Shown here: positions 17,595-55,556 of the stretch, piece after piece | How positions within the stretch are numbered: the first letter of the stretch is position 1 | How the letters are laid out: each line of letters starts with the position of its first letter | Assembly (NCBI RefSeq): GCF_037201965.1 | Contig: NZ_CP147518.1 | Coordinates: 1,239,001-1,303,000 of the forward strand | DNA: 64,000 nucleotides | Direction: 5' to 3' | Source: Spirosoma sp. SC4-14 | GTDB lineage: Bacteria; Bacteroidota; Bacteroidia; Cytophagales; Spirosomataceae | Program-made: the position numbers and the translations under genes | The notes under the pieces: generated by a model | Told to the model about the DNA's origin: nothing | The model's database searches: none | What the model saw: the letters and a program-made list of their open reading frames with translations, nothing else

Positions 17595-17610
17595 ACGGTC
17601 CGCCGTCGCG
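17595..17610 (+). repeat. 16-bp stem-loop insert, non-coding copy 1
   Basis: ACGG-TCCG-CCGT-CGCG followed by GTC. Perfect ACGG/CCGT stem. Lies in the presumed non-coding end of IS110-A. Confidence 0.7.
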
Positions 17611-17679
17611 GTCAGGTCCCTCTCTGTTTCCATTGCCATAAGACTCGAATAGAAATAAGGGATTGCAGGCCCACGAAAG

Positions 17680-17695
17680 GCGGTCGGCCGCTGCC
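17680..17695 (+). repeat. 16-bp stem-loop insert, non-coding copy 2
   Basis: GCGG-TCGG-CCGC-TGCC followed by GGT. Perfect GCGG/CCGC stem; tail TGCC as in the IS3 copy. Upstream of the IS110-A start codon. Confidence 0.7.
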
Positions 17696-17744
17696 GGTCG
17701 AGAAAAGCAAGGAGTTGACTACTCATTCAAAACTAAACCTTGTT

Positions 17745-17955
17745 ATGGACTTTTGCTACCGCCCCGGCGGCCCGGTTCATTGGCATCGACATTGCCAAAG
17801 ACACTTTGGACTGGGCGGTGTACACCCAGAAAGGCGGCTTCTTGCTTAATATCCACACCGAAAACACCCTCAAAGGCATCAAGTCGGCATTGACTCAGTT
17901 GAAGGCTCTGGCAGGCTGGAACCCTACTCAGGCCGTTTTCTGTATGGAGCATACG
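17745..17955 (+). pseudogene. IS110-A transposase, N-terminal part, with 16-bp insert
   Basis: Start of an IS110-type DEDD transposase. ATG at 17745 reads MDFCY, then a 16-bp insert at 17760-17775 shifts the frame. Removing it gives MDFCYFIGIDIAKDTLDWAV, the standard RuvC-like first catalytic motif (Asp in GIDIAK). The frame continues to QAVFCMEHT at 17955, where IS110-B interrupts it. Confidence 0.85.
17760..17775 (-). repeat. 16-bp stem-loop insert in IS110-A N-terminus
   Basis: Minus strand CCGG-GCCG-CCGG-GGCG followed by GTA. Removal restores TGC TAC TTC ATT (CYFI) in the transposase. Confidence 0.9.
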
Positions 17956-18048
17956 GCACGGATTTCCATGGGTTATACAAGCGTGGGTATATAGTTTTTG
18001 TCATATTTCAGTCCTCGGTGAACCACTGAGCAAACCCGATGGATAAGC

Positions 18049-18064
18049 GGCTTCGGCTGTCCGA
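18049..18064 (-). repeat. 16-bp stem-loop insert in IS110-B (fourth)
   Basis: Minus strand TCGG-ACAG-CCGA-AGCC followed by GCT. Removal gives AAC AAG CTT ATC CAT (NKLIH), matching NKLIHRVC in IS110-A. Confidence 0.9.
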
Positions 18065-18091
18065 TTGTTACGAACTGCATTAAGTACAAGC

Positions 18092-18107
18092 CGCATCGGC
18101 GGTCCGA
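18092..18107 (-). repeat. 16-bp stem-loop insert in IS110-B (third)
   Basis: Minus strand TCGG-ACCG-CCGA-TGCG followed by GCT. Removal gives AAT AAA ATG CTT GTA (NKMLV), matching PKMLV in IS110-A. Confidence 0.92.
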
Positions 18108-18269
18108 ATTTTATTCTTGCCTTCGGCCACTTTACGCCGATAGTAGTCTTGCAGTTCACCTTTGACACAAATCGCTGACATTGCCCCCAGATGAAATAAG
18201 CTTTTAAGTCGTTTTCGGGCGTGCTCATTGACGCGGGTTTTACCGCGAACACTACTACCCGATCGATAC

Positions 18270-18285
18270 CGCACAGGCGGCCCTG
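18270..18285 (-). repeat. 16-bp stem-loop insert in IS110-B (second)
   Basis: Minus strand CAGG-GCCG-CCTG-TGCG followed by GTA. Removal gives TTC GAG TAT CGA (FEYR), identical to APFEYRSGSS in IS110-A. Confidence 0.95.
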
Positions 18286-18696
18286 TCGAAAGGAGCTACA
18301 CCAGCATGGCAAGCAAGCTTCTTAGCATCACGGATGGTTTTAAATTCTTCGGTGGCAATTAGCAATTCGGTGGCTGTCGCATCACCAACTCCAGGAACAG
18401 AAGTCACTAAATCAAATAATGCTTTTAAATAATCATCTGCTTGAATGAGCTCTCGAATTTGCTTGTCAGCGTTTTTCAAATCGGCATTGATTGCCTTCAA
18501 TGAAGCCTGGCAAGTTTTAGTGAGTTGTCGTTGAAGAACAGGGTCAATAAACCCTTGTTGTTCATTAATAGGTTGCTGTAACTGCTGACGCACAAGCAGG
18601 AGTCGCTGGCGAAGGCCACTTAAGGAAGCCAACTTTTGTAAAACGGGCCTTGGCGGTTGCCAAAGACGTATTTTGTCACGAAAACGGAAAGCATAC

Positions 18697-18712
18697 CGCA
18701 CCGGCGGCCCGG
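18697..18712 (-). repeat. 16-bp stem-loop insert in IS110-B (first)
   Basis: Minus strand CCGG-GCCG-CCGG-TGCG followed by GTA. Removal gives ATC GCT GAG TAT GCT (IAEYA), the family consensus RIAEYA. Confidence 0.95.
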
Positions 18713-19178
18713 TCAGCGATTCGAACCGCATCAATTGCATCGTTCTTACCCCGTTGCAAACCGCCTGCTTTCTTGATCTGTAAACTACTTTCTAACCAGA
18801 GGGGGAGGTGAACTTTGTAAAGGGAAGATAAAAGGTGAGTGCAATACACTCCCGTATGCTCCATGCAACAAACCGACTCCGAGATGATAAAATCAGGCAA
18901 GGCTTTGATGACTTTGAGAGCCACTTTGATGCCTGCTTCGGAATTAGCTGTCTGAGTTTGCAGAACAATAGACTTGCCGTCTGTGACAGCCCAGTCGAGG
19001 GTGGCTTTCGAGACATCAACGCCAATGTAAAAGCGAGTAGACATAATGTTTAAGGTTTAAAGGTTGGTGACCAGAGTAGTTGCTTACCTTAATACTCGAA
19101 CCCTTACTAATGGGGCTGTATCCCCGAATTTCCATCTGAGTTTAGGCAAGCATAACAGGGTGGGGCCTTAATCCGTGC

Positions 19179-19875
19179 GTAGATCAATATCTCGGCCGCC
19201 CCCTAGGGAAACCCACCTTGTTTACTTGTTGGCAAGCTATTCTAAATCTTGAAATCTTACCACACCGCAAACCTAAAGGGCCGCCCCGCTACAACCTGCT
19301 GGCGGTTCCGGTGGCCGAGCAAGAGACATTCATCAGCAAAACGCTCCAAAAGACCTTGAAAGGTAATGTCAAGAAGTCCTTGACTGCCCTTAAAGAGGAA
19401 CAGAAAGCCGTCGAGGCACAAATTCACGACCTTATCCAGGCTGATGCTCGCTTAAAAGAGTTGTTCGATTTAATGGTCTCCGTGCCGGGCGTTGGCCCGG
19501 TGATCGCTACCGAACTCTTGTTAGCTACCAACGAGATGCAGGCCATCAGTGATCCTAAGAAGTTGGCTTGTCATGCTGGAGTAGCCCCTTTTGAGTACCG
19601 CTCAGGCAGTAGTATACGGGGCAAAACCAAAGTAAGCCATCAGGCGCGCAAGCGCCTGAAAGCGCTGGTTCACCTGTGTACGATGTCGGCCATCCAAGTG
19701 GCAGGCGACCTTCAGGATTATTATGCTCGCAAGCTCCAGGAGGGTAAGCCCAAGATGCTAGTGATCAATGCCGCCCGCAACAAGCTGATTCACCGGGTTT
19801 GTGCGGTGGTTCGTCGGGGTGAAAAATATTCGGACCGCCGATGCGGACAAAAATTATACGTTAGCACTTGCTTAA
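19179..19875 (+). pseudogene. IS110-A transposase, C-terminal part, with 16-bp insert
   Basis: Continuation of IS110-A. From LLAVPVAEQETFISKTLQK it aligns with IS110-B through LFDLMVSVPGVGPVIATELL, HAGVAPFEYRSGSSIRGKTK and INAARNKLIHRVCAVVRRG. The 16-bp insert at 19830-19845 diverts the end; without it the protein ends EKYDKNYTLALA at 19875. The part expected between CMEHT and LLAVPVAEQ (about 100 residues) is missing, so a deletion has also occurred. Confidence 0.82.
19830..19845 (+). repeat. 16-bp stem-loop insert at the IS110-A C-terminus
   Basis: TCGG-ACCG-CCGA-TGCG followed by GAC. Identical in sequence to the 18092 copy but in a different element and position. Removal gives EKYDKNY, matching LKYDKNY of IS110-B. 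Confidence 0.92.
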
Positions 19876-20003
19876 GCCATAGAAATCGGAGCGATGCATT
19901 CGACAATCTGCGTAAGTGGGACTGTTGTCTCAAATCCACGTGTTCCCACTGTCAGATACGGCAAAATCCATTTTTCAATCATAGCTTTGTCGATGATCCC
20001 CAT
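19875..20003 (-). pseudogene. IS5-family transposase, displaced N-terminal part
   Basis: The leftward frame from ATG 20003 reads MGIIDKAMIEKWILPYLTVG, then TRGFETTVPLTQIVECI, after which the similarity ends at the IS110 junction. It fits directly before RLKTGCQWRELP of the 16742-17475 part if a couple of codons (such as LY) are restored. Confidence 0.8.
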
Positions 20004-20161
20004 TACTATGTGTATTTAAAGTTCGCGCTTCAAAATTCACACGGTTTTGGGGATTTTAGCGAAAGTTTAAACAGGTTCTAAGTCAGTTTTCATAACGTTT
20101 GGGCGTAGAAGCCACTCTTTGAAGAGCCATGCAACAAAGCTTATTTTGATACAAAAAACTA

Positions 20162-20195
20162 AAAAAGCCCCAAATCGCAAGATTTGAGGCTTTTT
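20162..20195 (-). terminator. Hairpin terminator downstream of the tRNA-Asn remnant
   Basis: AAAAAGCC-CAAATC pairs with GATTTG-GGCTTTTT around GCAA with one mismatch, flanked by A- and T-runs. Read leftward it directly follows the tRNA 3' end. Confidence 0.75.
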
Positions 20196-20196
20196 G

Positions 20197-20246
20197 CTCC
20201 CGAAGCTGGGCTCGAACCAGCGACCCTCTGATTAACAGTCAGCAGA
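20197..20246 (-). tRNA. tRNA-Asn(GTT) 3' half, integration site remnant
   Basis: Leftward, the anticodon loop CTGTTAA (anticodon GTT), the T-arm GCTGG-TTCGAGC-CCAGC and the acceptor 3' strand TTCGGGAG are all present. The D-arm and 5' acceptor strand are absent: the sequence beyond 20246 is unrelated AT-rich DNA. This is the classic scar of an element integrated in a tRNA gene, and the integrase at 20386 lies next to it. Confidence 0.85.
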
Positions 20247-20344
20247 TTACTAGTTTAATATGGTTCAATATGATTTATAATAAATTGATTATTAGTAATT
20301 TATGAATCATGGAGTTTCAGGGTAAACCGTTTAAATACGGATTC

Positions 20345-20366
20345 CTTGTGCAAATCTTGTGCAAAT
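20345..20366 (+). repeat. Tandem CTTGTGCAAAT repeat before the integrase gene
   Basis: Two adjacent copies of CTTGTGCAAAT at 20345-20355 and 20356-20366, 20 bp before the integrase start. Possible integrase or excisionase binding sites; this is inference. Confidence 0.5.
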
Positions 20367-20385
20367 TTTTTCGTATCTTTAATTC

Positions 20386-21600
20386 ATGAACACAAATGTC
20401 GTGATTTCCTTAGATACTCGCCGTGCCAAAAAGGATGGCACCTATCCAGTCATTATGCGGCTGGGCCATAATGCGCAAACAACCTCTATTCCCATTGGAA
20501 TAAGCGTTGCTGTAGCGGATTGGGATGAGAAAAAGCGGGCTATTAAAAAAAGCTATAAGGGCGTCAGTTCTGTTACCAGACTGAACAATCAGATTGAGAA
20601 GGAGAAGACTGATGCGATGGACATCATTCTTAAGCTTCATGAATTGGGCACCCTGCAAACTTTATCGATAACGTCGTTGAAAGACCGGATCACACAGAAA
20701 GAAGCCAAAGATTCTTTTCTCCAATTCGCTAGTCAATGCGTGGATGAGCTGATTAAAGCGCATCGGGTTGGTACGGCCAGATCGTATAAAGGCTTGATTA
20801 GCGTTTTGAAAGAATACCGCAAAGGCAAGGATTTATTGTTCAAGGAGATCACGTATGATTTTCTTGCCAGATTCGAGACTAACCATAAAAGCAAAGGGAA
20901 TGGTGCCAATGGCTTGGCTGTCTATATGCGGACAATCAGGGCCATTTACAACAAGGCTATTAAGTCTGGGGTAGCCGATAAAGAATTGTATCCGTTCGAT
21001 GATTATAAGATTAAGACCGCGCCTACCGAAAAGCGAGCTTTGGACGGAGAGTTTCTTAAAACGATCATTCAACTGGACATTCCGGCCACCCATATATGCT
21101 TTAATACCCGCAATTATTTCGTTGCCAGCTATATGATGTATGGGATGAACTTTGCGGATATGGCCTATCTGGAAAAAAGCTCTGTGGAGAATGGGCGCGT
21201 CCGGTATCGCCGGAGAAAAACGGGCAAGCTGTACGATATTAAGATTACGCCACAGCTTGAAAGTATACTGGTTCATTACATGCAACAAACGCCCGATTCC
21301 AAGTTCGTCTTTCCGATCCTGAAACGAGACTCGCCAACTCTGCGTGAAAAGGACATTCAGTGGGCCAGAAAACGGTACAATAAAAAGCTGAAGCTACTGG
21401 CTTCGCTATGCGGAATTGACTCAAACCTGACAAGCTATGTGAGCCGACATTCATTTGCGACCCAGGCAATGCTGCACGATATTCCGCTGACAGCGATCAG
21501 CACGATGCTTGGCCATTCCAGCGTAAAAACTACCGAAATTTATCTGAAAGGGTTGCCGGTCAATATCCTAGACAATTACAATGAACGAATTTTGGGATGA
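20386..21600 (+). CDS. Tyrosine recombinase (integrase) of Bacteroidota island type
   Basis: 404 residues. An N-terminal arm-binding domain (MNTNVVISLDTRRAKKDGTY, then VIMRLGHN) and a SAM-like core-binding domain (FLQFASQCVDEL) precede the catalytic domain. The catalytic C-terminus shows YRRRKTGKLYDIKI, the SRHSFATQAM box, LGHSSVKTT and the nucleophile in TEIYLKGL. It should cut and join DNA at the tRNA-Asn site located 140 bp upstream. It marks the left end of the island carrying CRISPR-Cas. Confidence 0.9.
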   Translation: MNTNVVISLDTRRAKKDGTYPVIMRLGHNAQTTSIPIGISVAVADWDEKKRAIKKSYKGVSSVTRLNNQIEKEKTDAMDIILKLHELGTLQTLSITSLKDRITQKEAKDSFLQFASQCVDELIKAHRVGTARSYKGLISVLKEYRKGKDLLFKEITYDFLARFETNHKSKGNGANGLAVYMRTIRAIYNKAIKSGVADKELYPFDDYKIKTAPTEKRALDGEFLKTIIQLDIPATHICFNTRNYFVASYMMYGMNFADMAYLEKSSVENGRVRYRRRKTGKLYDIKITPQLESILVHYMQQTPDSKFVFPILKRDSPTLREKDIQWARKRYNKKLKLLASLCGIDSNLTSYVSRHSFATQAMLHDIPLTAISTMLGHSSVKTTEIYLKGLPVNILDNYNERILG

Positions 21601-21730
21601 GGTGAGTAAATGAAGTAAGCAGCCAGTTGATTATTAGTCCGTTAAATAAAACGGACATGCGTAAAAGCCAGTGTTTAGGTGGTTCGTATAGCTTTTACTG
21701 GTAGATTCTCTATTTTGGCCAAAAAGCACA

Positions 21731-22000
21731 ATGGAAGTTATCTGTCTACACGATGAAGCCTTTTATGCCCTAATTGACAAGGTTCTTGAACGGGTTCAGC
21801 AACAGCAAGCGGTCAAGGAGGATAAATGGATTTCAGGCAGCGAGGCCATGAAGAAATTGCGTATTCAGAGCAAAACGACTTTGCAGAAACTCCGTGATGA
21901 AGGCAGTATCCGGTTTTCGCAGCCTGAGAGAAAGCTCATCCTATACGACAGCGATTCCATCAACGACTATTTATCTCGCCACACTAAAGAAACCTTTTAG
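21731..22000 (+). CDS. Small HTH (excisionase-like) DNA-binding protein
   Basis: 89 residues. The second half KWISGSEAMKKLRIQSKTTLQK followed by LRDEGSIRFSQPERKLILYDSDSINDYL has the MerR-like winged helix pattern of excisionases (HTH_17). The N-terminal helix (DEAFYALIDKVLERVQQQQA) may dimerise. Position next to the integrase supports a role in excision or island regulation. The start of the next gene is 3 bp after its stop. Confidence 0.75.
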   Translation: MEVICLHDEAFYALIDKVLERVQQQQAVKEDKWISGSEAMKKLRIQSKTTLQKLRDEGSIRFSQPERKLILYDSDSINDYLSRHTKETF

Positions 22001-22002
22001 CC

Positions 22003-22239
22003 ATGTCAGAAGACGAACCATCACCAGAGTTCATTAAAGGTTATAATCATGGTTACCAACTCGCCAAGCATGAACCAGAGTTATTGGGCAAAATCCTGAA
22101 ATCCCAAAGCGACAATCCTCCTAACGATTACAGCAGAGCGATGGCACATGGGAAAACCCAGTACGATCATGAAAAACTCGTTGCTGAAATGAAAGCTATC
22201 CGTGAACGGCAGAAGCAGACGATTAGACGAAAGCGATAA
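22003..22239 (+). CDS. Small hypothetical protein
   Basis: 78 residues, charged and soluble: SPEFIKGYNHGYQLAKHEPE and a basic end RERQKQTIRRKR. I recognise no family. It starts 3 bp after the excisionase-like gene and is probably co-transcribed with it. Confidence 0.6.
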   Translation: MSEDEPSPEFIKGYNHGYQLAKHEPELLGKILKSQSDNPPNDYSRAMAHGKTQYDHEKLVAEMKAIRERQKQTIRRKR

Positions 22240-22347
22240 TTCTAATCAACATATCATTTCTTCAAAAATCATTTTTGTTTCTCTGGTGTAGTCAACGACA
22301 TAAATTTTCATTCGTTGACCTTACGTTTGTCTATATCCTTTTCTTTA

Positions 22348-23271
22348 ATGGATCAAATCCAGACCTTGCGTCGACGGCTGCATATCATTCGCATAGTCGA
22401 CCGACCTTTTTTGTATCCGTCCCTCAAAAAGCTGGTTGCTCAACTCAGTGAGGACTTCGATGCGGTTTCGGAACGGACCGTTGAGCGAGACATCCGGGCG
22501 ATTGGAGCGGTCTATCAAATTTATATTCGAAATAACCGGCGCAAAGGGGGCTATTACCTTGATCTGCCCACCGATGAAGATGTGGCTGACTTCGAGCAGT
22601 TTGTGCAACTGCTCGAACGACGAGAACGGTTGGAGTTTCTGACGTCGTCGGTAGCGAGTATTCGGGGCATTGGGCGCCATTTGCAACTTGAGCATAACAC
22701 ACAGTTTACAGGAAACGGACATTTGCCTCTGTTATGGCAGGCACTACAAACAGGTCGCTGTGTGGAGTTTGTCTACCGAAAGTTTGAGAAAGAAGCCGAC
22801 GAAGGAAAGCTCCGACGGGTAGAACCGGGTTTACTGCTGGAATACCGCAATCGATTTTATCTGGATTGTTTTGATCTGGAAGCCAATCAGCCACGCACCT
22901 TCGGCCTGGATCGGTTGCACGGGCTTACGCTGACCGATCAGCCTATTTCCACCGCCCGTACAGGCCAGCGTCGAACCGACCGCCGACACGCTATTGGAGT
23001 AACCTGTCCGCCTGATCTCGAACCTCAACGGGTGGTCCTGCGCTTCCAGACCAGCGAAGCCAACTACGTCCGTTCACTACCGTTGCACAGTAGTCAGCGG
23101 CTGATTCAGGAAGTCCCCGGTTTTGTTGATCTGGAATTGACCGTTATTCTCAACCACGAACTTGAGCGTGAAATCCTGGCATTCGGCGAACTAGTCGAAG
23201 TGCTGGAACCGGCTGAACTGCGGGTGAGGTTGGCTGCTCGTGTACGAATACTAAGCGAAAAATACTTTTAA
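22348..23271 (+). CDS. WYL-domain transcriptional regulator
   Basis: About 307 residues. It has an N-terminal HTH (MDQIQTLRRRLHIIRIVDRP followed by SERTVERDIRAIGAVYQI), a WYL domain in the middle (LWQALQTGRCVEFVYRKFE and YRNRFYLDCFDLEANQPRTF) and a C-terminal WCX part (LEREILAFGELVEVLEPAEL). WYL proteins bind nucleic-acid ligands and often control CRISPR-Cas and other defence loci. The frame is open from 22315, but the ATG at 22348 gives the typical N-terminus. It lies on the same strand as the cas operon, about 0.65 kb upstream of cas6, so control of that operon is a reasonable inference. Confidence 0.87.
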   Translation: MDQIQTLRRRLHIIRIVDRPFLYPSLKKLVAQLSEDFDAVSERTVERDIRAIGAVYQIYIRNNRRKGGYYLDLPTDEDVADFEQFVQLLERRERLEFLTSSVASIRGIGRHLQLEHNTQFTGNGHLPLLWQALQTGRCVEFVYRKFEKEADEGKLRRVEPGLLLEYRNRFYLDCFDLEANQPRTFGLDRLHGLTLTDQPISTARTGQRRTDRRHAIGVTCPPDLEPQRVVLRFQTSEANYVRSLPLHSSQRLIQEVPGFVDLELTVILNHELEREILAFGELVEVLEPAELRVRLAARVRILSEKYF

Positions 23272-23334
23272 TTATCTTGTTATAGTTACAAGATGCCGTA
23301 GTAGTTTATTAGGGATATTAAGAATTAGTATAAA

Positions 23335-23342
23335 TATATTTG
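23335..23342 (+). promoter_or_regulatory. Bacteroidota-type -7 promoter box
   Basis: TATATTTG fits the TAnnTTTG consensus of the Bacteroidota primary sigma factor. It lies about 43 bp before the ATG at 23385, which supports that start. Confidence 0.5.
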
Positions 23343-23384
23343 CGCTGTTTAGACGAACAAAATTACTTTTGTTATAGTTGTGAA

Positions 23385-23735
23385 ATGCGAAAGCAAACTC
23401 TAGATACTATGAATAAAGTAGTAGTTACTCCAGAAATCCAACCTATTTTTAGACGTACGCTCACATTCTTTGATAAGAGCGAGTTGATAATAATTTCCGA
23501 AAACCAGAGCAAGAAATATGATAGTGGAGAAGTGATTCAGCAAATTATTGAATTTTCACCATCATTGGTTATTACTCAAGACAAAGATTTGGCTAGTATT
23601 TGCGTTAACCTCCTTGGATGCGTTAAAGTCATATTATTGAGGGATTGTCAGCCAAGTTGTGATCGAACCTTTCTATCAAATGCTCTTGACATCAGTGCTT
23701 TTATGGCTTCTAACGCCAGATTATTCACAATGTAA
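23385..23735 (+). CDS. Hypothetical protein between the WYL regulator and cas6
   Basis: About 116 residues from the ATG at 23385 (MRKQTLDTMNKVVVTPEIQP). The section DKSELIIISENQSKKYDSGE and FSPSLVITQDKDLASICVNL has alternating hydrophobic strands and helices that faintly resemble a receiver-like alpha/beta fold; I would not assign it. Three cysteines are in CVKVILLRDCQPSC-type context. Low GC compared with the cas genes suggests a separate origin. Its stop lies inside the degenerate CRISPR-like unit that follows. Confidence 0.6.
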   Translation: MRKQTLDTMNKVVVTPEIQPIFRRTLTFFDKSELIIISENQSKKYDSGEVIQQIIEFSPSLVITQDKDLASICVNLLGCVKVILLRDCQPSCDRTFLSNALDISAFMASNARLFTM

Positions 23736-23827
23736 TTAATCGCACCCATCACGGGTATTGAAATTAGTAATGCATAGGGGACATTAATTCACCCCCAGTC
23801 ATCAATCGGACCTTCGGGTATTTTTTT
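23732..23827 (+). CRISPR. Degenerate repeat-spacer-repeat unit upstream of cas6
   Basis: 23732-23764 resembles the array repeat (AATCGCACC...CGGGTATTGAAAT, with a 4-nt enlargement in the loop). 23798-23827 resembles it again (ATCAATCGGACCTTCGGG, then TATTTTTTT), with the ATTGAAAT handle replaced by a T-run. The gap is 33 nt, close to the array spacer size. The second copy keeps the ACC-TTCG-GGT hairpin and adds the T-run, so it can act as an intrinsic terminator. Confidence 0.65.
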
Positions 23828-23915
23828 CTGTAAACCGTCAATTTTTGGCGGAAGCATCATTCACCTTTGTTCCACATCGCCTATTAATTGTAAACATTGA
23901 GCTTCTAAACCTTCT

Positions 23916-24584
23916 ATGCGCCTTCAACTACAACTAACTCCTACTACTCAGCCGCTACCTTACGACCACTTGCATCAACTTACTAGCACCCTGCACAAAT
24001 GGCTGGGTCGAAATGATATTCATGATGGTTTAAGCCTCTACAGCTTCGGCTGGTTACGAGGGGGCGAAAGCCGCAACGGTTCCTTGCGCTTTCCCAAAGG
24101 AGCTATCTGGAATATTTCGTTTTTTGACGAAGAGAAAGCTCGACAAGCACTGGGTGGTATACTTGATCAGCCAGAACTAGGGTTTGGAATGCGGGTTGCT
24201 GAAATTCGGGAAGTTGCTCCGCCTGCCTTTCAACATCATCATTATTTCCTGACGGATGGCTCTTCGATTGTTATTCGTCAGAAACGTCCCGATGGCTCGC
24301 GAGCCTATCTACTCTGGGATGATCCAGCTACTGACCAGGCATTAACGCAGTCATTCCAGCGCAAACTCACAGCGGCTGGTTTTTCAGGAGCTGACCTCGG
24401 TGTGACGGCTTCGTTCGACCGTACTTACCAAAATGCTCGTACTCGAAAGATCGCTATTAAAGGTACTAATCATCGGGGAAGTGAATGCCCGGTGATTGTT
24501 AAGGGAACTTCTGATGCACTACATTTTGCCTGGACGGTGGGACTCGGTGAATTAACGGGCAGTGGTTTTGGTGCATTACGTTAA
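23916..24584 (+). CDS. cas6: Cas6 CRISPR pre-crRNA endoribonuclease
   Basis: 222 residues. Cas6 cuts the repeat RNA and leaves an 8-nt 5' handle, here expected to be AUUGAAAU. The C-terminal glycine-rich loop GLGELTGSGFGALR is the Cas6 RAMP signature. HLHQLTSTLHKWLG at the N-terminus and the ferredoxin-like strands also fit. Possible catalytic histidines are in FQHHHYFL or near the N-terminus. It is the first gene of an eight-gene operon, 14 bp before cas5. Confidence 0.85.
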   Translation: MRLQLQLTPTTQPLPYDHLHQLTSTLHKWLGRNDIHDGLSLYSFGWLRGGESRNGSLRFPKGAIWNISFFDEEKARQALGGILDQPELGFGMRVAEIREVAPPAFQHHHYFLTDGSSIVIRQKRPDGSRAYLLWDDPATDQALTQSFQRKLTAAGFSGADLGVTASFDRTYQNARTRKIAIKGTNHRGSECPVIVKGTSDALHFAWTVGLGELTGSGFGALR

Positions 24585-24598
24585 TCCGATAACCCAAT

Positions 24599-27405: not shown

Positions 27406-27406
27406 T

Positions 27407-44205: not shown

Positions 44206-45109
44206 TTAGTGCTTAGTTTTTGATAAATTTAGATAATACTCATTTTCAAACTGTTCAGGGCTCTGATACCCCAACGAGGAGTGCTTACGTTTGCGGTTAT
44301 AGTAGCACTCGATGTATTCAAATAATTCTGGACGAGCATCGTCCAGATTCTGAAATATACCATCCTGAATCAATTCTGCTTTCAATCTCGACCAGCAAGA
44401 CTCCATAAAGGCATTATCATACGGATCGTCAGGACGGCTCATACTTTGACGCAACCTGTTATCTCTCAGCGTCAAGCGAAAGTCTTTGTCAATGTATTGA
44501 CCACCACGATCAGAATGGACAACCGCTTGTTCCTGAATTGAATAACCCAATAAAGCCTTTTTGAGGGCCTTATGGACCAAGGAGGCTTCCATATGGGTTT
44601 CTACCTGCCAGCCTTTAATTCGTCGGCTAAATAAATCCATCCAGGCGGCCAAATAGGCCCACTCACCACCAGCCAGGGCAATATAGCGGGGCGGCCCGTG
44701 CCGTAATGTCTCCTACTAGAACTAATCCAGGAGCCGTTGGAAATGGAGCCTCCAGCAGCAAATTAGGACTAAATGGGCCATCATGACGACTATCGGTGGT
44801 ACGTGGTACGAAACTACGGGGCTGGATAGCTCGTAATCCCTGCTGACGCATCAGTCGCTGAACCAGGTACCGACTTACTTGGTACCCTTGGTCGCGAAGC
44901 TCTTCGACTAATCGACGACTTCCGTAGCGTCGGCAATGGTCAAGAAAACTTTCTTCAACCGATTGGGCTAACTGTTTCTTCTCCACTGTAGATTGATAAG
45001 TTTCACCAGCCTGATACCTGTAAAAGCCGCTACGACTGACACACAATACGTTACACAAAAGTTGAACAGAATGCTCATTAATCTGCTGACTAATAAACTG
45101 ATAGATCAA
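44206..45109 (-). pseudogene. IS3 orfB transposase, broken by a 16-bp insert
   Basis: rve/DDE integrase domain. The N-terminal part (MIYQFISQQINEHSVQLLCN ... SRSGFYRYQAGETY) runs to LVLVGDIT, then shifts frame at the insert 44687-44702. Removing 16 bp gives GDITYIALAGGEWAYLAAWM, the classic IS3 DD(35)E first motif. Downstream HSDRGGQYIDKDF and YDNAFMESCWSRLKAELI carry the other acidic residues. Otherwise intact. Confidence 0.9.
44687..44702 (+). repeat. 16-bp stem-loop insert in IS3 orfB
   Basis: Plus strand CGGG-GCGG-CCCG-TGCC followed by GTA. Removal gives GAC ATT ACC TAT ATT (DITYI) on the coding strand. Confidence 0.92.
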
Positions 45110-48303: not shown

Positions 48304-48567
48304 ATGATGACAAAACGAAAAACCCGACGTTGGAGCGTCGGGTCTTCGGTTAGTAAATCAGGAGCTTGGCCACTTCGACAAAAAGTTTTACGGCTCCTAA
48401 TATGGCTGATAGCACTCCCGCTATTTGACCTGTTAAGCGCAACCGGACTAACCATCGGTTGCGCTTTTTTGCTTGGGGTAGCATATCACATCAAATATCG
48501 TTATTCCTTTTACAGCTTGTTTATCTACCCATCCCGGAATCGATTTTATTGGGAGTTAATGTGTTGA
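48304..48567 (+). CDS. Doubtful small membrane protein
   Basis: 87 residues with one hydrophobic stretch (LIWLIALPLFDLLSATGLTI). The hairpin at 48322-48343 lies inside its start and codon use is unconvincing. Kept only because nothing else covers the region. Confidence 0.25.
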   Translation: MMTKRKTRRWSVGSSVSKSGAWPLRQKVLRLLIWLIALPLFDLLSATGLTIGCAFLLGVAYHIKYRYSFYSLFIYPSRNRFYWELMC

Positions 48568-48763
48568 TTATCAGCCGTATAAATATTCTAAAATCTTTTC
48601 AAACGACTGGGGGATTAATCGTTATTGACTATCAATCTGTAGAGGAATCTGCATTATTTTTTTGCAACTCACGTTCTAAATCTTGAATGGCCCGTAGCGT
48701 ACCTTTTAAATTATTGGGGATACTTTCTGTTAGTTGATATTCAGATACGCCAATAGGCTTTTT

Positions 48764-49112
48764 GAATGTAACCCCTGTGTAACCCCATGATATATCTTAC
48801 GATCATAAATGTATAATTAAGTTATTGAAGTAAATGGTGGGCCCGGCCAGACTTGAACTGGCGACCAGACCGTTATGAGCGAAGAGGTTTGACCTAAATA
48901 TATAAGCGACGGCGGATTTCTATCCATCGGCTTACATACTCAAATACCGCTCTTCACAAATTTTCGTTGTCTAAAGAATCGCCAGATGATACCATATGTT
49001 ATATGGACATTCATCGTAACTGGGGGCATACTTGGGGGCAGCCAGCAGAATGATCTGTTTTTAATACCAATCAATTCAAGCACTTGGGACGAAAATGGCA
49101 ATGCGGCTACGG
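48764..49112. repeat. att-type direct repeat, copy 2
   Basis: Matches 40445-40788 in direct orientation, including the tRNA-Met 3' half and ACTGGGGGCAT motifs. The integrase at 49316 lies just to the right. Confidence 0.85.
48835..48882 (-). tRNA. tRNA-Met-like (CAT) 3' half, integration scar 2
   Basis: Same T-arm and CTCATAA anticodon loop as at 40516; acceptor strand reads CGGGCCC-ACCA here, one base different. The 5' half is absent. Confidence 0.8.
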
Positions 49113-49315
49113 GCACCAATCTCTTTTTTACTGACATTATCCATCCTTATCAAAATGCGAAATAGTCAAATTTCGCAGTACGTTAGGGCTATCATCCCTT
49201 TATCCATCTATTCCTATCATTTACCCACAGTAACCAAAAGTGGGGGCATGACTGGGGGCATGAACTTGCCAATGGATAAGGGGGTTTGTAGCAACGCGAA
49301 TCAGAGGGTGCAATA

Positions 49316-50494
49316 ATGGCTTTGTCAAATATGACCTGTCAAACAGCGAAACCCAAAATCAAGCCGTATAAGATGGCAGACGGGGAAGGGCTGTATCTAG
49401 AAGTGACGCCGTACGGCACAAAATTATGGCGACTGAAGTATCGGCTGCATGGTAAGGAAAAACGCATTTCACTGGGTGCTTATCCCGCCGTTTCGGTAGC
49501 TGATGCCCGTAAGGCCAAAGACGATATTAAACGGGACCTAAAGGTTGGCATTGATCCGGTCTTAAAACGGTTACAAATTGCTCAGACGCAGGCGCTGAAC
49601 GGCCAACGTGATTTTAAATCGATGGCCCTTGAATGGCACGGGAAACAGATGCCTCTATGGAAGCCCAAACATGCCGACATCATTAAGCATCGTTTTGAGA
49701 AGTACGTATTTCCGTCCTTAGGCAGCTTTCCGCTGGCGGATATAAAACCCTTGATGATGCTGAACTGCCTTCAGAAGATCGAAAAAACAGCCCCTGATCT
49801 GTCGCGTCGGATGAAGGCCGCCTGTAGCCATGTCTTTAAATATGCCATTGCAACCGGCAGGGCCGAAAGCGACCCCACCTATGGGTTAGAGGCTGCGATG
49901 AAAAAATTTAAACGAGGACATTACGCATCTATTTCGGTCGATGAATTTCCCCAATTTCTCGTTTGTCTGACGGATTATCAGGATCGTATTCATCGGCAAA
50001 CCTTTCTAGCCCTCAAACTATTGCTGCTGACATTCGTGCGTACGAGTGAACTGGTGGAAGCCCGATGGGACGAAATCAATTTTGACAAAGCAATGTGGGT
50101 TATTCCAGCGGAACGGATGAAAATGAATCTGCCTCATATCGTTCCCTTGTCGCACCAGTCGCTGGCGATTTTTCGCGAGCTAAAAAAGCTGAATGCGCAC
50201 CGGGACTTTATCTTTCCCGGTTATTATAACCCGAAAAAACCAATGAACAAAAACACGATGCTGGTTGCCATCAAGCGGATGGGTTATAACGGCAAAATGA
50301 CGGGTCATGGCTTTCGCTCCCTGGCCTTAGGCATTTTAAAAGAAAAATTGGGCTACCCGCATGACATTGCGGATCGGCAACTGGCGCACGTTCCAAAGAG
50401 CAGTGTTGACCGAGCGTATGACCGCGCCCAATTTTTGCCGCAACGGACAAAAATGATGCAGGACTATGCGGATTATATCGACAAGGCATGCTAA
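49316..50494 (+). CDS. P4-type tyrosine integrase
   Basis: 392 residues. N-terminal DUF4102 arm domain (MALSNMTCQTAKPKIKPYKM, then DGEGLYLEVTPYGTKLWRLK), core-binding domain, and a catalytic domain with the Arg in FVRTSELVEARWDE, MTGHGFRSLALGIL and the Tyr in DRAYDRAQFLPQR. P4-like integrases use tRNA 3' ends, matching the tRNA-Met scars at 40516 and 48835. It probably belongs to the element on its right. Confidence 0.93.
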   Translation: MALSNMTCQTAKPKIKPYKMADGEGLYLEVTPYGTKLWRLKYRLHGKEKRISLGAYPAVSVADARKAKDDIKRDLKVGIDPVLKRLQIAQTQALNGQRDFKSMALEWHGKQMPLWKPKHADIIKHRFEKYVFPSLGSFPLADIKPLMMLNCLQKIEKTAPDLSRRMKAACSHVFKYAIATGRAESDPTYGLEAAMKKFKRGHYASISVDEFPQFLVCLTDYQDRIHRQTFLALKLLLLTFVRTSELVEARWDEINFDKAMWVIPAERMKMNLPHIVPLSHQSLAIFRELKKLNAHRDFIFPGYYNPKKPMNKNTMLVAIKRMGYNGKMTGHGFRSLALGILKEKLGYPHDIADRQLAHVPKSSVDRAYDRAQFLPQRTKMMQDYADYIDKAC

Positions 50495-50550
50495 AACGAT
50501 GTTGTCAGTTTTAGTACAGGCTGTTATATAGGTAGTTAGGATATGTTGGT

Positions 50551-50925
50551 TTAGTCAGTCACTAATACTAGACGCATGGCAAGTTCTATAGGCATTTTCT
50601 CAACGGCTTTTCGAATAACGGCCATATATGCATTGGCCGATGGCCATCCGATGGCCTGTGCCTGAGAATCCAACGCATGTGCCTTCAAGGTGATGTACTG
50701 TTTTTTATTTTTTTTGCCTAGTGTTTCCAATTGCAGCAACAGTTCCTGAGCGGCAATATCCTGCTTGATTGACAGATCGACCAATTTTTCCAGAATTTCT
50801 TCCGGCGGATTCCTGCGGCCTGCCCACCATGATTTGGTCGTATCAACGTTGGTGCCCAAGAATAGTTGGGCTTCTTTTAATGGCAAACCGCAACTTTGAG
50901 AAAATAACTTAAACAGGGAGGTCAT
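50551..50925 (-). CDS. Hypothetical protein with HTH-like N-terminus
   Basis: About 124 residues from ATG 50925 (MTSLFKLFSQSCGLPLKEAQ). LFLGTNVDTTKSWWAGRRNP looks like a YdaS/Cro-like recognition helix, followed by PPEEILEKLVDLSIKQDIAA. Possible regulator of the element; weak assignment. Confidence 0.55.
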   Translation of the reverse strand: MTSLFKLFSQSCGLPLKEAQLFLGTNVDTTKSWWAGRRNPPEEILEKLVDLSIKQDIAAQELLLQLETLGKKNKKQYITLKAHALDSQAQAIGWPSANAYMAVIRKAVEKMPIELAMRLVLVTD

Positions 50926-51303
50926 GAAAAGTAAACACATGGAAAAGACAGTGGTCGGTTCATTTTGTACACTTTTTGTGTACCTGTCAATCAAAAAGGG
51001 AAATAAATAGTGCCTTTCCAGCTATGCAGTTTTCTTGATAACCTGAAGGTTGTCAATTCGAATCTGGCTTCCGCAACCAAGTTTTTCAGGCACTTATATC
51101 CCCTTTCAATTTATCGTGAAAATAGCCGGTGCCGCATTTTGAGCCGTTCCCGTCTAAACGGTTTTATCACTTTTTACTCAGTTTATCCGTTCTTATTTGT
51201 TGTTGATCAATCCCGTTTTAGGTTGATTATAGGCATTTATTCCTTATATCATGACTATATTCCTGCTTCACGTAGGGTAACCATAGTCAGATAGGGGGAC
51301 GCC
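50926..51303. other. Intergenic region upstream of the excisionase-like gene
   Basis: 378 bp, no ORF that looks real. It includes GTACACTTTTTGTGTAC (50967-50983), a palindrome next to the leftward gene that may be its operator. Confidence 0.5.
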
Positions 51304-51492
51304 ATGCCGACGACGAATGAAACGCTGTTGGATCGAAAAGAAGCTGCCAAATACCTCCGCATTTCTCCAAACACGTTGGCCGTATGGGATTGCACAAAAC
51401 GCTATGATCTGAAACCGCTCAAAGTAGGCCGATCAGTACGCTATCGCCGGTCGGAGTTGGACAAGTTCATTGAACGCCAACTTCAGCAGTAA
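51304..51492 (+). CDS. Excisionase-like HTH_17 protein
   Basis: 62 residues: LLDRKEAAKYLRISPNTLAV, then KVGRSVRYRRSELDKFIERQ. This is the MerR-like winged helix of Xis/AlpA-type proteins. First gene of a rightward cluster with primase, RadC-like and ArdC genes. Confidence 0.85.
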   Translation: MPTTNETLLDRKEAAKYLRISPNTLAVWDCTKRYDLKPLKVGRSVRYRRSELDKFIERQLQQ

Positions 51493-51534
51493 CGAACGGC
51501 CATCCATTCCCACCATTTTTTGAGGAGATCGCCC

Positions 51535-52449
51535 GTGAACATCGATCAGGCGAAGGCAGTCGCTATTGTCGACATTTTAGGTCGATTGGGCATTCATCCC
51601 AAACGAACAACGACGGGGAAAGTACTTTATCTATCACCCGTGCGGAAGGAAAAAACACCCAGTTTTTGGGTCGATACCAAGACCAATCGTTGGCACGACT
51701 ACGGCGACGGACGCGGAGGAGATGTTGTGGATTTAGTATCGGCATATCTACAGTTCACGCGCGAAGCGCATACTGTATCGGATGCCTTGCGCTGGATTAC
51801 CAATATGGGTGTTGCTGCATATACTATTACACCCATTTATCGGCCTGACGAGCCTCTAAACCATGATGATGGATCGTTGCTGCTGAAATCAAAACGATCT
51901 ATTCAACATGTAGGACTGATGCATTATCTGGACAAGCGCGGTATTCCACTTCCGATTGCTCGTCCCCATCTCAAGGAACTTCGCGTTCAGAATACACAGA
52001 CGAATAAGTATTTTACCGCGCTTGGTTTTCCCAATGAAGATGGTGGCTTTGAACTCCGCAATCCCTTCTTTAAAGGCTGTTTACGGCCTAAAGCCATCAG
52101 CTTTGTTCGTGGGAAAGTGCCTAAACCCGAAGGTATACACCTATTTGAAGGCTTCATGGATTACCTGTCGGTCGTTGCGCAGTTAAAAGGGAATGGCCTT
52201 GCCGATGATGCTATCATTCTTAATTCAGTATCCTGCCTGAAACAGGCTATCCCTTATATGCAGAATTACGGCTATCGCCTCGCTTATAGCTGGATGGATA
52301 ACGACGAGGCCGGAGCCAAAGCCGCTACTGTTTTATCTGAATTCTGCCAGACACAAGCCGATTTACGGCATACGCCCATGAACAAAGTTTATGCTCCGCA
52401 CAAAGATGTCAATGTATGGCATACGCACAAACTCAATTTGACTGTGTGA
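51535..52449 (+). CDS. Toprim/primase-like protein
   Basis: 304 residues from the GTG at 51535, which has GAGGAG 10 bases upstream; this decides the start. The N-terminus resembles a primase zinc-binding domain without its cysteines (SPVRKEKTPSFWVDTKTNRW then HDYGDGRGGDVVDLVSAYLQ). The Toprim part has the Glu in IHLFEGFMDYLSV and the DxD-like MDNDEAGAKAATV. Such DnaG-like proteins prime replication of transferred single-stranded DNA. Common on Bacteroidota mobile elements. Confidence 0.85.
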   Translation: MNIDQAKAVAIVDILGRLGIHPKRTTTGKVLYLSPVRKEKTPSFWVDTKTNRWHDYGDGRGGDVVDLVSAYLQFTREAHTVSDALRWITNMGVAAYTITPIYRPDEPLNHDDGSLLLKSKRSIQHVGLMHYLDKRGIPLPIARPHLKELRVQNTQTNKYFTALGFPNEDGGFELRNPFFKGCLRPKAISFVRGKVPKPEGIHLFEGFMDYLSVVAQLKGNGLADDAIILNSVSCLKQAIPYMQNYGYRLAYSWMDNDEAGAKAATVLSEFCQTQADLRHTPMNKVYAPHKDVNVWHTHKLNLTV

Positions 52450-52457
52450 GGTGGCCT

Positions 52458-52931
52458 ATGTCGCAACTCAACATTCAATCGTTGTTTACGGTCAATGAAG
52501 TTGAAATCAGCTACCGCAACAAAACACCGTATCAGGATCGGATTCAAATTACGCGCTCCGCAACGGCTTACGAAATTCTGCATCAGGCGTGGGACGAGAA
52601 TAAATTGGAACTGCTGGAACAGTTCAAGATTCTGCTGTTGGACCGCAAGAACAACTGTCTGGCGATTTCCGACATTTCCACGGGCGGCATGAGTGCCTGC
52701 ATCGTTGACCCGAAAGTAATTTTTGTAACAGCACTCAAAGCCAATGCGTCCGGTATTATTCTAGCGCACAACCATCCCTCCGGTAATCTACAACCTAGCC
52801 CACAGGATTTAGCCTTGACGCGAAAACTATCTGATGGCGGCAAGTTACTCGACATTGCCATACTGGATCATCTGATCGTCACACCGCGCAGTTATTACTC
52901 ATTTGCTGACGAAGGGTGCATGCCGCGCTAG
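52458..52931 (+). CDS. RadC-family (JAB/MPN) protein
   Basis: 157 residues from ATG 52458. The JAMM metal motif is complete: HNHPSGNLQPSPQD (His104, His106) with the upstream Glu-equivalent in ISTGGMSACIVDP. The N-terminal HhH region is missing, as usual for the island-encoded short RadC proteins found beside ArdC. Role unproven, often listed as DNA repair. Starts 8 bp after the primase-like gene. Confidence 0.88.
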   Translation: MSQLNIQSLFTVNEVEISYRNKTPYQDRIQITRSATAYEILHQAWDENKLELLEQFKILLLDRKNNCLAISDISTGGMSACIVDPKVIFVTALKANASGIILAHNHPSGNLQPSPQDLALTRKLSDGGKLLDIAILDHLIVTPRSYYSFADEGCMPR

Positions 52932-53121
52932 CGGTCAGCGGTTTAGTTGTCATTCTGCCAGTGGCCAGAGTTGCTGGCGGGTCTGTACACGACGCCACTC
53001 ACTTTCCAACCACAATTTTCGCCTGCTTCGCATTCCCCGCCCCACCAAAATTCTGGTTGGTTCTCTCGCTAAGCCGCCGTGTTGTTCATCCCCTATAACC
53101 CCAACCACAGGAGCATGATAC

Positions 53122-54051
53122 ATGACCAAACCGATTACCCGCAAAACTACGTCAGCCACTACCGGACAAACTCAGGACGATATTTACGCCCGCGTCACCT
53201 CCAAGATTCTGACCGATCTTGAAAACGGCAATCTCTCGTGGCGCAAGCCTTGGCATTCCGAACACATGACCAATCAGGTGATGCAACCTTTACGTTGGAA
53301 TGATATTCCCTATACCGGCATCAATACGCTCATTCTCTGGAATGCCGCCAGCGATCAAGGCTTTACCTCTCCCTATTGGATGACTTTTAAACAGGCCACC
53401 GATATGAAGGCATCTGTCCGCAAAGGCGAGAAGGGCACCCAAATTGTCTATGCCGATAAATTCACCAAAGAAGAGGAAGATGCCAATGGCGACCTCAAAT
53501 CCAGCCAGATTCCCTTTCTTAAATCGTATACCGTCTTCAATGCGTCTCAGATCGAAGGCTTGTCCGATGGTTTCTATAAAACCCCTGAGCCCGTTGTTAT
53601 CAACGGACAAGCGCGTGATCCGAAACTCGAAGGTTTCTTTGCTCAAACGAAAGCCGACATTTATACCGGTTCCAAAGCGTGTTACACCCAGAGCACCGAC
53701 CGCATCCAAATGCCACCGTTCGAAAGCTTTGAAACGGCTATGCGCTATTACGCTGTTTTAGCGCATGAAATTTGCCACTGGACGAAACCGCCACACCGCT
53801 TGAATCGTGACTTCGGTAAAAAACACTATGGCGATGAAGGGTACGCTAAAGAAGAACTGACAGCCGAGCTAGGAGCCTGCTTTCTGGCCGCTGATCTTGG
53901 CTTTGAACCGCAGCCGGAAGAACATCATGCGGCTTATATCCAGTCCTGGCTGCATGTGCTCAAGGATGACAAACGATTTATCTTTCAGGCCGCATCCCAC
54001 GCGCAAAAGGCGGTTGAATACATTTATGCCCTGCAAAGCCCTCGCCCTTGA
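53122..54051 (+). CDS. ardC: ArdC-type antirestriction protein
   Basis: 309 residues. N-terminal ssDNA-binding DUF1738 domain (DDIYARVTSKILTDLENGNL then SWRKPWHSE, YTGINTLILWNAA) and a C-terminal zincin metallopeptidase with HEICHW (His215) and the third ligand in EELTAELGACFLA. It protects incoming single-stranded plasmid DNA against restriction. Its presence with a MobF relaxase supports a conjugative or mobilisable element. Confidence 0.93.
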   Translation: MTKPITRKTTSATTGQTQDDIYARVTSKILTDLENGNLSWRKPWHSEHMTNQVMQPLRWNDIPYTGINTLILWNAASDQGFTSPYWMTFKQATDMKASVRKGEKGTQIVYADKFTKEEEDANGDLKSSQIPFLKSYTVFNASQIEGLSDGFYKTPEPVVINGQARDPKLEGFFAQTKADIYTGSKACYTQSTDRIQMPPFESFETAMRYYAVLAHEICHWTKPPHRLNRDFGKKHYGDEGYAKEELTAELGACFLAADLGFEPQPEEHHAAYIQSWLHVLKDDKRFIFQAASHAQKAVEYIYALQSPRP

Positions 54052-54315
54052 GTTTAGAAAGCAAAACTTATGCGTTGGCTCACGGGTGATTTGGTGGTTT
54101 CGTCAACTATCCCTTTCTTGGGGTCAGTTGATAGAGCATGTCAGCCTAGCCCAATTGTCCGTCATGGCGCTGATCCCTCATTTTTACGAGGTAAAAACGA
54201 TCTACGACTGCGGCCAAAAATAGACATTGCACATCGATTTTTGGCCTTGGGGAGCTGACACGGCCTATTGAGCTTTGTTTGCTTCCATCATCAACCACAC
54301 AAGAAAGGAGATTTG

Positions 54316-54522
54316 ATGATGACTTCTCAAACCGAAACCCGCTCGTCCAAACCAACCCACACGGTTTATGTTCTAAAATCACAAGCCGATACCGAGCAAG
54401 CTGATTGGATCAGAGTAGGGGCTGCTTGGGAACACGGCGATAAAGACGGGTTAAACCTATCCTTGAACATTCTTGGCCAGAAAATTCCAGTTGTTGTTCG
54501 TAAGAACAAACCGAAAACCTAA
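54316..54522 (+). CDS. Small conserved element protein
   Basis: 68 residues from ATG 54316 (AAGGAG 8 bases upstream). Core: WIRVGAAWEHGDKDGLNLSL, then NILGQKIPVVVRKNKPKT. It is a short protein seen on Bacteroidota and Proteobacteria mobile elements near relaxases; function unknown. A partial second copy of its 3' part is at 59360-59481. Hairpin terminator follows. Confidence 0.75.
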   Translation: MMTSQTETRSSKPTHTVYVLKSQADTEQADWIRVGAAWEHGDKDGLNLSLNILGQKIPVVVRKNKPKT

Positions 54523-54529
54523 TTAACAC

Positions 54530-54559
54530 AAAGCCGGATAGATGACTCTCTCCGGCTTT
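54530..54559 (+). terminator. Hairpin terminator of the small element protein
   Basis: AAAGCCGG pairs with CCGGCTTT, 14-nt loop. A related hairpin follows the partial copy near 59488. Confidence 0.65.
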
Positions 54560-54709
54560 AACAAATCAGAATGAAACAAGTATGGTATGGGCCCAAGTTG
54601 TGATTGGCAGAAATAAAGAACCCTTATGTAATTCAAGTTGCGAGATAGTCTGAGCCTGCCAGTCAGGAGTGTATTTTAGAGTTTCCGAGGTTCTAAAATA
54701 ACAACTCCC

Positions 54710-55556
54710 ATGACTGACAAAGCCATAGCAATCTACTGCTTTTTAGACGATTTCTTCAAGGCCAGTGCCCCTAAAGAAGATGCTCATTGTAAACTTAACG
54801 ATGCCGAAATCGCTACAACCGCTTTACTGGCGGCCCTGTTCTTTTACGGCAATCAAGCCTCGGCTATGAAATATATGCGCGAACATCATGGGTTGAAAAT
54901 GATTGACAAATCGGGCTTCAATCGACGTATCCACCGGCTTGAAGCCCGACTAGTAGCACTCTTTCATGCCTTGGGCTTTACTCTTAAAGATCTCAGCACT
55001 AGTAGTCGTTACGTCATCGACTCGTTTCCGGTAGCGGTCTGCCGAAATTGCCGGATTCCGGTTTGTAAACTGCTGAAAGGCAAAGCCTATCATGGCTACA
55101 ACGAAGCGAAAAAGGAATACCGCGCGGGCGGCCCCGTTCTACGGTTTTAAGATTCAGCTTATTATCGATGAAAACTGCTTACCCGTTGATTATTTTGTGC
55201 TTGCAGGCAGTTTTGCTGATGTAACGGCTCTTCAGTCGATGAGTATTCATCTACCAGCGGGTAGTGAACTCTATGGAGACAAAGGCTATACTGACTACCA
55301 ACAGGAGGATTTGTACGCTGAGCATGAACAGATTTTTCTGCGAATTCATCGTAAAACGAATAGCCATCGACCCGATGCTGCTTGGGATGTGTTTCTAAAG
55401 AATCACTTTCGCAAACCCATCGAAGGGGTATTTAATCAAATCACTGACTTATTTCCCCGCAGTATTCATGCAGTGACGGCTAAAGGGTTCCTGTTGAAAG
55501 TGTTTTTGTTTCTTTTGGCATACACCTTTGATGGACTCACACCAGATCTGCTATAA
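54710..55556 (+). pseudogene. IS982 transposase, broken by a 16-bp insert
   Basis: N-terminal part through RYVIDSFPVAVCRNCRIPVC and KGKAYHGYNEAKKEY, then the frame is lost at the insert 55121-55136. Without it the protein continues FYGFKIQLIIDENCLPVDYF, SADVTALQS-type segment, LYGDKGYTDYQQEDL and KPIEGVFNQITDLFP with the catalytic Glu. About 276 residues, full IS982 length, no other defect. Confidence 0.92.
55121..55136 (-). repeat. 16-bp stem-loop insert in IS982 transposase
   Basis: Minus strand CGGG-GCCG-CCCG-CGCG followed by GTA. Removal gives GAA TAC TTC TAC GGT (EYFYG), the family consensus. Confidence 0.95.

Follow-up and report, generated by a model that had tools for sequence, protein, structure and literature searches.

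The small dispersed repeats (SDR) of Nostoc and its relatives, whose description is credited to Elhai and colleagues in 2008, are reportedly tiny sequences of 21-27 nt with a common fold backed by compensatory changes. They are said to occur inside themselves and inside other elements, and to be confined to one bacterial group, the cyanobacteria. No enzyme is known for them. Here we analyze a family of 16-bp hairpin units, ten of which lie in a window of 64,000 nucleotides (C1:1239001-1303000) from the 8.1-Mb, two-contig genome of Spirosoma sp. SC4-14 (G000 hereafter). A preliminary description of this window had likened the units in concept to the very small cyanobacterial repeats, and we find the comparison apt. 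Both are dispersed short repeats whose common fold is kept by compensatory changes and which are present or absent at homologous sites. In contrast to the cyanobacterial repeats, the units measure 16 bp with 14-15-bp forms, belong to the Spirosoma family, couple the loop to the target and hit insertion sequences (IS) heavily and repeatedly. In kind, the nearest systems are SDR and the mitochondrial GC clusters of yeast; the family is set apart by its size, host, target coupling and IS load.

The yeast GC clusters are described as GC-rich palindromic mini-elements with rapid turnover and no known enzyme, the best studied being 42 nt long with a putative target duplication (PMC4478555). They share with our units the GC-rich palindromic nature, the rapid turnover and the lack of a known enzyme, but differ in that length, in the putative duplication and in being organellar. 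Repetitive extragenic palindromes and REPIN elements (REP/REPIN) are also short GC-rich hairpins, sometimes in inverted pairs (PMC3116915, PMC3733652). Compared with what PMC3116915, PMC3733652 and PMC6006769 describe, the units have an NGCG/NGCC tail and no GTAG/CGTC foot, insert singly and do not need a Y1 transposase. Moreover, they mostly do not flank genes for the REP-associated tyrosine transposase (RAYT), only one locus (L155) fitting that arrangement. Finally, IS608 inserts as a folded single strand without target duplication, bases of the element recognizing cleavage and target bases by pairing (PMC5934647). The units resemble IS200/IS605 in inserting without target duplication and, as their covariation suggests, in reading the target by pairing. 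Unlike IS200/IS605, they have no Y1 transposase of their own and no separate left and right ends; unlike in IS608, the guide would lie in the loop and pairing would reach one base into the 3' flank. Insertion may be likened to the guide logic of IS608, without membership in IS200/IS605. A literature search found no such family in Spirosoma or other Bacteroidota among the papers listed; subscription journals were mostly uncovered, so this is weak evidence of novelty.

In orientation A, a unit reads N1 N2 G G - L1 L2 L3 L4 - C C N2' N1' - T1 G C T4 and is followed by target base +1. The strict motif GGNCCGCCNNNGCGG occurs at 57 places in the genome, against one for the reversed motif used as control, and a second form, GGNCGGCCNNNGCCG, at 29 against 6. 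We scanned 99 relatives (36 congeneric genomes, 25 others of the taxonomic family and 38 others of the order) plus 158 others from the class, and called a genome a carrier at 10 or more motif matches and at least three times the control. By the strict motif, 32 of the 36 congeneric genomes are carriers (the exceptions being G007, G008, G010 and G015), as are 6 of the 25 others of the family (G040, G041, G042, G049, G052 and G060). Among the 38 remaining genomes of the order, G076 alone is a carrier (93 vs 27). No carrier was found by the same motif and threshold among the 158 genomes drawn from the class. Counts were highest in G005 (261 vs 5), G023 (192 vs 5), G032 (172 vs 5), G031 (171 vs 8) and G040 (138 vs 0). 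Forms of 14 and 15 bp occur besides the 16-bp units. Thus, the motif search bears out a genuine dispersed family of 16-bp units in Spirosoma and some relatives.

Two observations concern unusual arrangements. In G040 (C130, L191 6436-6500), five copies of one 16-bp unit stand head to tail with a period of exactly 16 bp. Units of 15 bp in L229 (G021 C575) and L205 keep the frame, the IS110 of L229 being open over 358 residues with two such units.

The preliminary description had listed ten 16-bp stem-loops in the window and proposed that they are GC-rich inserts of common plan in unrelated IS families, part of no single IS. All ten were recovered, each 16 bp long, with a perfect 4-bp stem A, a tail NGCG or NGCC and G as the next base (Table 1); the L3:T4 pair is absent in one of them. 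GC content is 85% in units against 47% in flanks (148 events). A looser search of the window for NNGG-N4-CCNN palindromes returned seven unrelated plus-strand matches besides the ten units, so a 4-bp stem alone is not diagnostic. The insert status of the units was confirmed by exact empty sites. Compared with intact homologues, IS110-B (minus strand) carries four inserts of exactly 16 bp, no other indel and one stop, and the 3' piece of IS110-A carries one 16-bp insert, a 1-bp deletion and one stop. The CYF, QYAY, EYRS, NKMLV, KLIH and KYDKNY sites were all aligned to insert-free relatives. The DITYIA site also lacks the insert in a related IS3 of another species, as seen on sister copy L080. 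The transposase broken at 55121, which we take to be of the IS982 type, has a 3' piece that Pfam assigns to DDE_Tnp_1_3. Removal of 16 bp, which was said to restore the canonical protein, mends the frame locally at every site, but two copies carry further lesions and the whole gene is not always restored. Of the two non-coding copies in IS110-A that had been called inserts, the first is confirmed on the sister copy L085 and the second is less clean there.

Table 1. The ten 16-bp units of the window, written in orientation A (a slash within a peptide marks the site of the unit).
Position	Strand	Unit	Location	Comparison
17595..17610	+	ACGG-TCCG-CCGT-CGCG	non-coding IS110-A DNA	exact 16-bp insert in sister copy L085 vs S. 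spitsbergense
17680..17695	+	GCGG-TCGG-CCGC-TGCC	non-coding IS110-A DNA	sister copy L085 aligns less cleanly: 14 bp and small differences
17760..17775	-	CCGG-GCCG-CCGG-GGCG	5' part of IS110-A transposase, CY/FIG site	aligned to insert-free relatives
18049..18064	-	TCGG-ACAG-CCGA-AGCC	IS110-B transposase, N/KLIH site, loop-tail pair broken	aligned to insert-free relatives
18092..18107	-	TCGG-ACCG-CCGA-TGCG	IS110-B transposase, NK/MLV site	aligned to insert-free relatives
18270..18285	-	CAGG-GCCG-CCTG-TGCG	IS110-B transposase, PF/EYRS hot spot	insert-free relatives, joined flanks, tree
18697..18712	-	CCGG-GCCG-CCGG-TGCG	IS110-B transposase, IA/EYAF site	intact homologues, joined flanks
19830..19845	+	TCGG-ACCG-CCGA-TGCG	3' part of IS110-A transposase, KY/DKNY site	aligned to insert-free relatives
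44687..44702	+	CGGG-GCGG-CCCG-TGCC	minus-strand IS3 transposase, DIT/YIA site	joined flanks; related insert-free IS3
55121..55136	-	CGGG-GCCG-CCCG-CGCG	plus-strand IS982-like transposase, EY/FYGF site	joined flanks

Insert-free copies of the same ISs were looked for in relatives and found. The named relatives of the IS110 of this genome are Spirosoma species and a Flavobacterium, and intact copies come from S. spitsbergense, Flavobacterium sp. SUN052 and a Spirosoma metagenome-assembled genome. Against the S. spitsbergense IS110, 17 short inserts were counted in the copies L208, L205, L085 and L181, with a length of exactly 16 bp in 14 cases. The clearest pair is L181 (G005) and the intact L215 (G034): the 1263 aligned bases contain 60 mismatches and, apart from seven inserts (16 bp long in six cases and 15 bp in one), no indel. 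At two of these seven sites, L181 and L215 have different bases immediately following the insert. Despite its seven units, L181 has no in-frame stop. An IS3 copy of G000 bears at least eight short inserts (14, 15 and 16 bp) that are absent from a G005 relative, while other inserts are common to both. Outside ISs, a unit before rplI is present in G000 and absent in 29 other Spirosoma loci examined (35 other genomes matched), L272 showing partial similarity. These rpsR-rplI spacers (L243-L272) are made up of short heptamer-like words (gtaaacc, gaaaact, taagtca) that vary between Spirosoma species.

The intact IS110 copies of Flavobacterium sp. SUN052 (L202 and L207) encode a protein 83-92% identical to the Spirosoma one, in a different family. 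Such similarity indicates that IS110 has likely moved horizontally between the two.

Covariation within the unit was assayed on 200 non-identical motif copies, retrieved with a pattern that permitted C/C and G/G at L3/T4. This pair was C/G in 167 copies and G/C in 33, with no other combination. The outer stem-A pairs are variable: among 131 copies with a perfect stem, N1N2 was CG in 43, TC in 30, CC in 26, AC in 14, CA in 6, GC in 5 and AT in 4, three others occurring once each. L1 was complementary to N1 in 115 of these 131. In a wider scan that left L2, L3, T4 and +1 free, L3 and T4 were complementary in 192 of the 210 perfect-stem matches. Therefore, L2-L4 can pair with T3, T4 and +1, giving either a pseudoknot together with stem A or an alternative hairpin.

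The unit is also coupled to its target. After similar flanks were collapsed, 148 events were available, many of their loci obtained via motifs ending in G. L2 was complementary to target base +1 in 130 of them (C:G 111, T:A 15, A:T 2, G:C 2), and the mutual information between the two positions was 0.50 bits, against 0.13 or less in 300 shuffles. Since motifs ending in G favor C:G in this set, the fair test is a recount on the 96 events from loci obtained without the motif (the window, L001-L004, L151-L180 and L201-L312). In this unbiased set, L2 and +1 were complementary in 86 events, where 63 were expected and 2000 shuffles gave at most 73; when L2 was T, +1 was A in 11 of 11. Broken down by genome, the T:A class accounts for 7 of 9 events with L2=T in G000 and 6 of 6 in the mixed remainder; G005 is uninformative because L2 and +1 hardly vary there. 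T1 is coupled to base -1, in that only 6 of the 96 unbiased events had neither A at -1 nor T at T1 (22.5 expected). In the 148 events, L1 and +2 are weakly linked and +2 is T in 83. Base +1 belongs to the target. Indeed, in S. fluviale a unit with L2=T precedes an A also present in the insert-free copy of S. spitsbergense, so that the target base preceded insertion.

We regard the following as established: exact insertion as judged by empty sites, covariation within stem A, between L3 and T4 and between L1 and N1, complementarity of L2 to +1, coupling of T1 to -1, repeated hits on the same codons, and occurrence in both gene orientations. The preliminary description had contained neither the units outside transposases nor the pairing of loop, tail and target, the repeated codon hits and the 14- and 15-bp forms.

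On balance, we consider it moderately probable that the units are 16-bp mobile hairpins, likely moving as a folded single strand, whose loop would select the target by pairing with its first base. Units stand immediately 5' of target base +1, and the target is not duplicated; in the process that we favor, a non-autonomous micro-element would enter there as a folded strand. During insertion, L2-L4 would pair with T3, T4 and +1, as a pseudoknot or an alternative hairpin, and these contacts of the loop with tail and target would keep the joint together and specify +1. The substrate would be single-stranded, probably DNA rather than RNA, and an enzyme acting in trans would do the joining. In IS copies, the unit usually does no more than break the transposase. 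The units could stem from an enzyme since lost. If this mobile-hairpin reading is correct, 16 bp suffices for mobility, less than the 21-27 nt reported for the cyanobacterial repeats, and the unit is among the smallest mobile DNA units known. Each unit would itself encode its target in readable form, through the match of loop base 2 to target base +1. The spread of gene-free micro-repeats would then become directly testable; one base change should redirect insertion.

Several results weigh against this reading. The L2:+1 rule is broken in 10 of the 96 unbiased events; when L2 is other than C, only 12 of 20 obey it, the main exception being G before A (4), and the tandem arrays of G040 violate it as well. 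Folding of 17 nt gave a mean of -5.4 kcal/mol against -4.8 for shuffled letters. Since the fold is barely more stable than these, the case for a folded intermediate is drawn from covariation. When the target was folded by prediction, insertion points showed no preference for unpaired bases (unpaired probability 0.44 at the junction vs 0.42-0.51 at offsets). No mobilizing enzyme was found, neither Y1_Tnp nor RVT_1 being detected throughout the 36 congeneric genomes. Finally, the closest pairs still differ at about 5% of bases, and insertion is deduced from sequence comparison.

With the unpaired probabilities just given, general insertion into predicted hairpin loops of the target was dropped. 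Junctions between inverted arms of at least 7 bp were found in 4 of 145 cases, against 1 of 868 control points. A few units thus sit at the apex of a palindrome, such as the one around 1499 in L032, where the perfect arms measure 19 bp. At L130, L134 and L075 3829, units are located within further intergenic palindromes or at their apex (tgtcatgctgacgaag...-type repeats).

Insertion sequences are often hit. About 34 of the 49 perfect-stem copies of G000 lie in or beside IS sequence and the rest mostly in spacers, for example beside rplI; these figures come from reading translations rather than from a formal count, and one peptide read as transposase had no Pfam match. Among the 49 copies, no clear broken non-transposase gene was found, a few copies such as L038 and L023 being ambiguous. 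In G000, 39 of 83 chromosomal motif places have a neighbor within 2 kb, where 3.5 were expected over the contig. However, a model confining the places to 1 Mb of dispensable DNA gives 24, and up to 43, so the neighbor count alone is no proof of targeting. Runs of at least four places in 2 kb had 13 starts, against 0.05 (maximum 2) in the dispensable-DNA model, some runs being copies of the same IS and some places being due to chance.

The effect on transposase genes was assessed on 20 stretches with partial IS110 matches, among the matches listed, chosen for a broken or partial frame and not for an insert (L277 and L278 appear to represent a single event, L273 covers the same place as L208, and L282, L283 and L288 reach contig ends). 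Thirteen of the 20 carry units, 25 in total; the stretches also have 6 stops and 17 other frameshifting indels, of which three are likewise 16 bp long. Units are thus the commonest single kind of frame-breaking lesion in this sample, and therefore bear on the survival time of ISs in the Spirosoma family.

The same sites are hit repeatedly. We mapped 48 inserts on IS110, in a set that includes copies chosen for bearing units: PF/EYRS is occupied in six copies, KL/ACHA in six, RN/KLIH in three and HL/GTMS in two, and the units that share a site often differ in sequence. Relative to the gene, both unit orientations occur. In a tree of 33 IS110 copies, intact rows included, PF/EYRS and KL/ACHA need six changes each; the tree was built by a quick method, 10 of its 29 inner branches are weak, and gains are not separated from losses. 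The ratio of nonsynonymous to synonymous substitution (dN/dS) among insert-bearing copies is 0.04-0.09 where computable, like that of intact pairs, several pairs being saturated (dS is 1.0 for L085-L181). Since the tree needs six changes per site and dN/dS resembles that of intact copies, the compared sequences indicate that hits on IS110 are recent and recurrent. Candidate reasons for such dense hits are target words shared by conserved codons, tolerance of damage, single strands exposed in transposition, and dedicated silencing. A bolder reading, that Spirosoma has an insertion machinery which cripples ISs by placing 16-nt hairpins, guided by their own bases, in conserved codons of transposase genes, would amount to base-pair-guided silencing without known counterpart; we consider it doubtful.

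Alternatively, the units might be REP/REPIN units moved by RAYT, a Y1 transposase akin to IS200/IS605. Their GC-rich hairpins, the inverted unit pairs 25-90 bp apart in G005 and the L155 locus (G002 C176), where an IS200-like Y1 gene has one unit on each side, no more than about 40 bp from the domain match, are in line with this, as are REP insertions inside tnpA-REP genes, reported for a subclass found in Bacteroidetes (PMC6006769). We nevertheless judge it unlikely. Y1_Tnp (PF01797) was not detected in 7 of the 36 congeneric genomes, six of them carriers (e.g. G031, 171 vs 8, and G018, 74 vs 5). A unit was present within 1.5 kb at 5 of 30 Y1 loci, compared with 3 of 34 loci of other kinds, and in 5 of 20 further Y1 stretches of 2.5-5 kb. 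Moreover, REP singlets are considered defunct (PMC3116915), whereas singlets insert here. The sole Y1 (RAYT-like) gene of G000 (L293, about C1:2293155-2293499) is flanked by longer hairpin repeats of a different kind, ccccgaaggggg...attatagcagaaa, which are unlike the 16-bp units. Non-detection in carriers and this different repeat at the local RAYT rule out Y1/RAYT as a necessary mobilizer. A reverse transcriptase, as for an RNA-mediated repeat, is excluded as necessary in the same way: RVT_1 (PF00078) was not detected in 17 of the 36 congeneric genomes, among them the carrier G000, nor in G040, G041 and G042. In G001, G018 and G029, at 100% completeness, neither domain was detected, with motif counts of 38 vs 4, 74 vs 5 and 48 vs 5.

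The units could also be scars left by excision of a larger element rather than insertions of 16 bp. Imprecise footprints would give forms of 14, 15 and 16 bp, and the 15-bp case of L181 vs L215 can be read as a 16-bp unit with one target base lost. However, no longer element with these ends was seen in the loci read, the tandem arrays have a 16-bp period, and fixed element ends would not explain stem letters that vary freely while loop, tail and target covary. We consider scars quite improbable.

A further possibility is that the units are tolerated, being removed from RNA or bypassed in translation, so that the transposases still work. The low dN/dS of insert-bearing copies and the open frame of L181 would agree with this, but units lie in both orientations and in all codon phases, and some copies have stops and other indels. 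Moreover, L181 pairs with L215 and L085 with L207 on the tree; since insert-bearing copies adjoin intact ones, the inserts are recent. Splicing or bypass is ruled out on orientation, phase and tree, and tolerated units are very improbable. Finally, native IS parts or assembly and base-calling artefacts are scarcely credible explanations: the same site does bear units in several IS110 copies, but intact homologues lack them and two sites need six tree changes each, and an artefact is very unlikely because dozens of separate assemblies contain units, several of these assemblies consisting of one contig.

Elsewhere in the window, positions 53122-54051 hold an ArdC-type antirestriction protein with a zincin-like domain.

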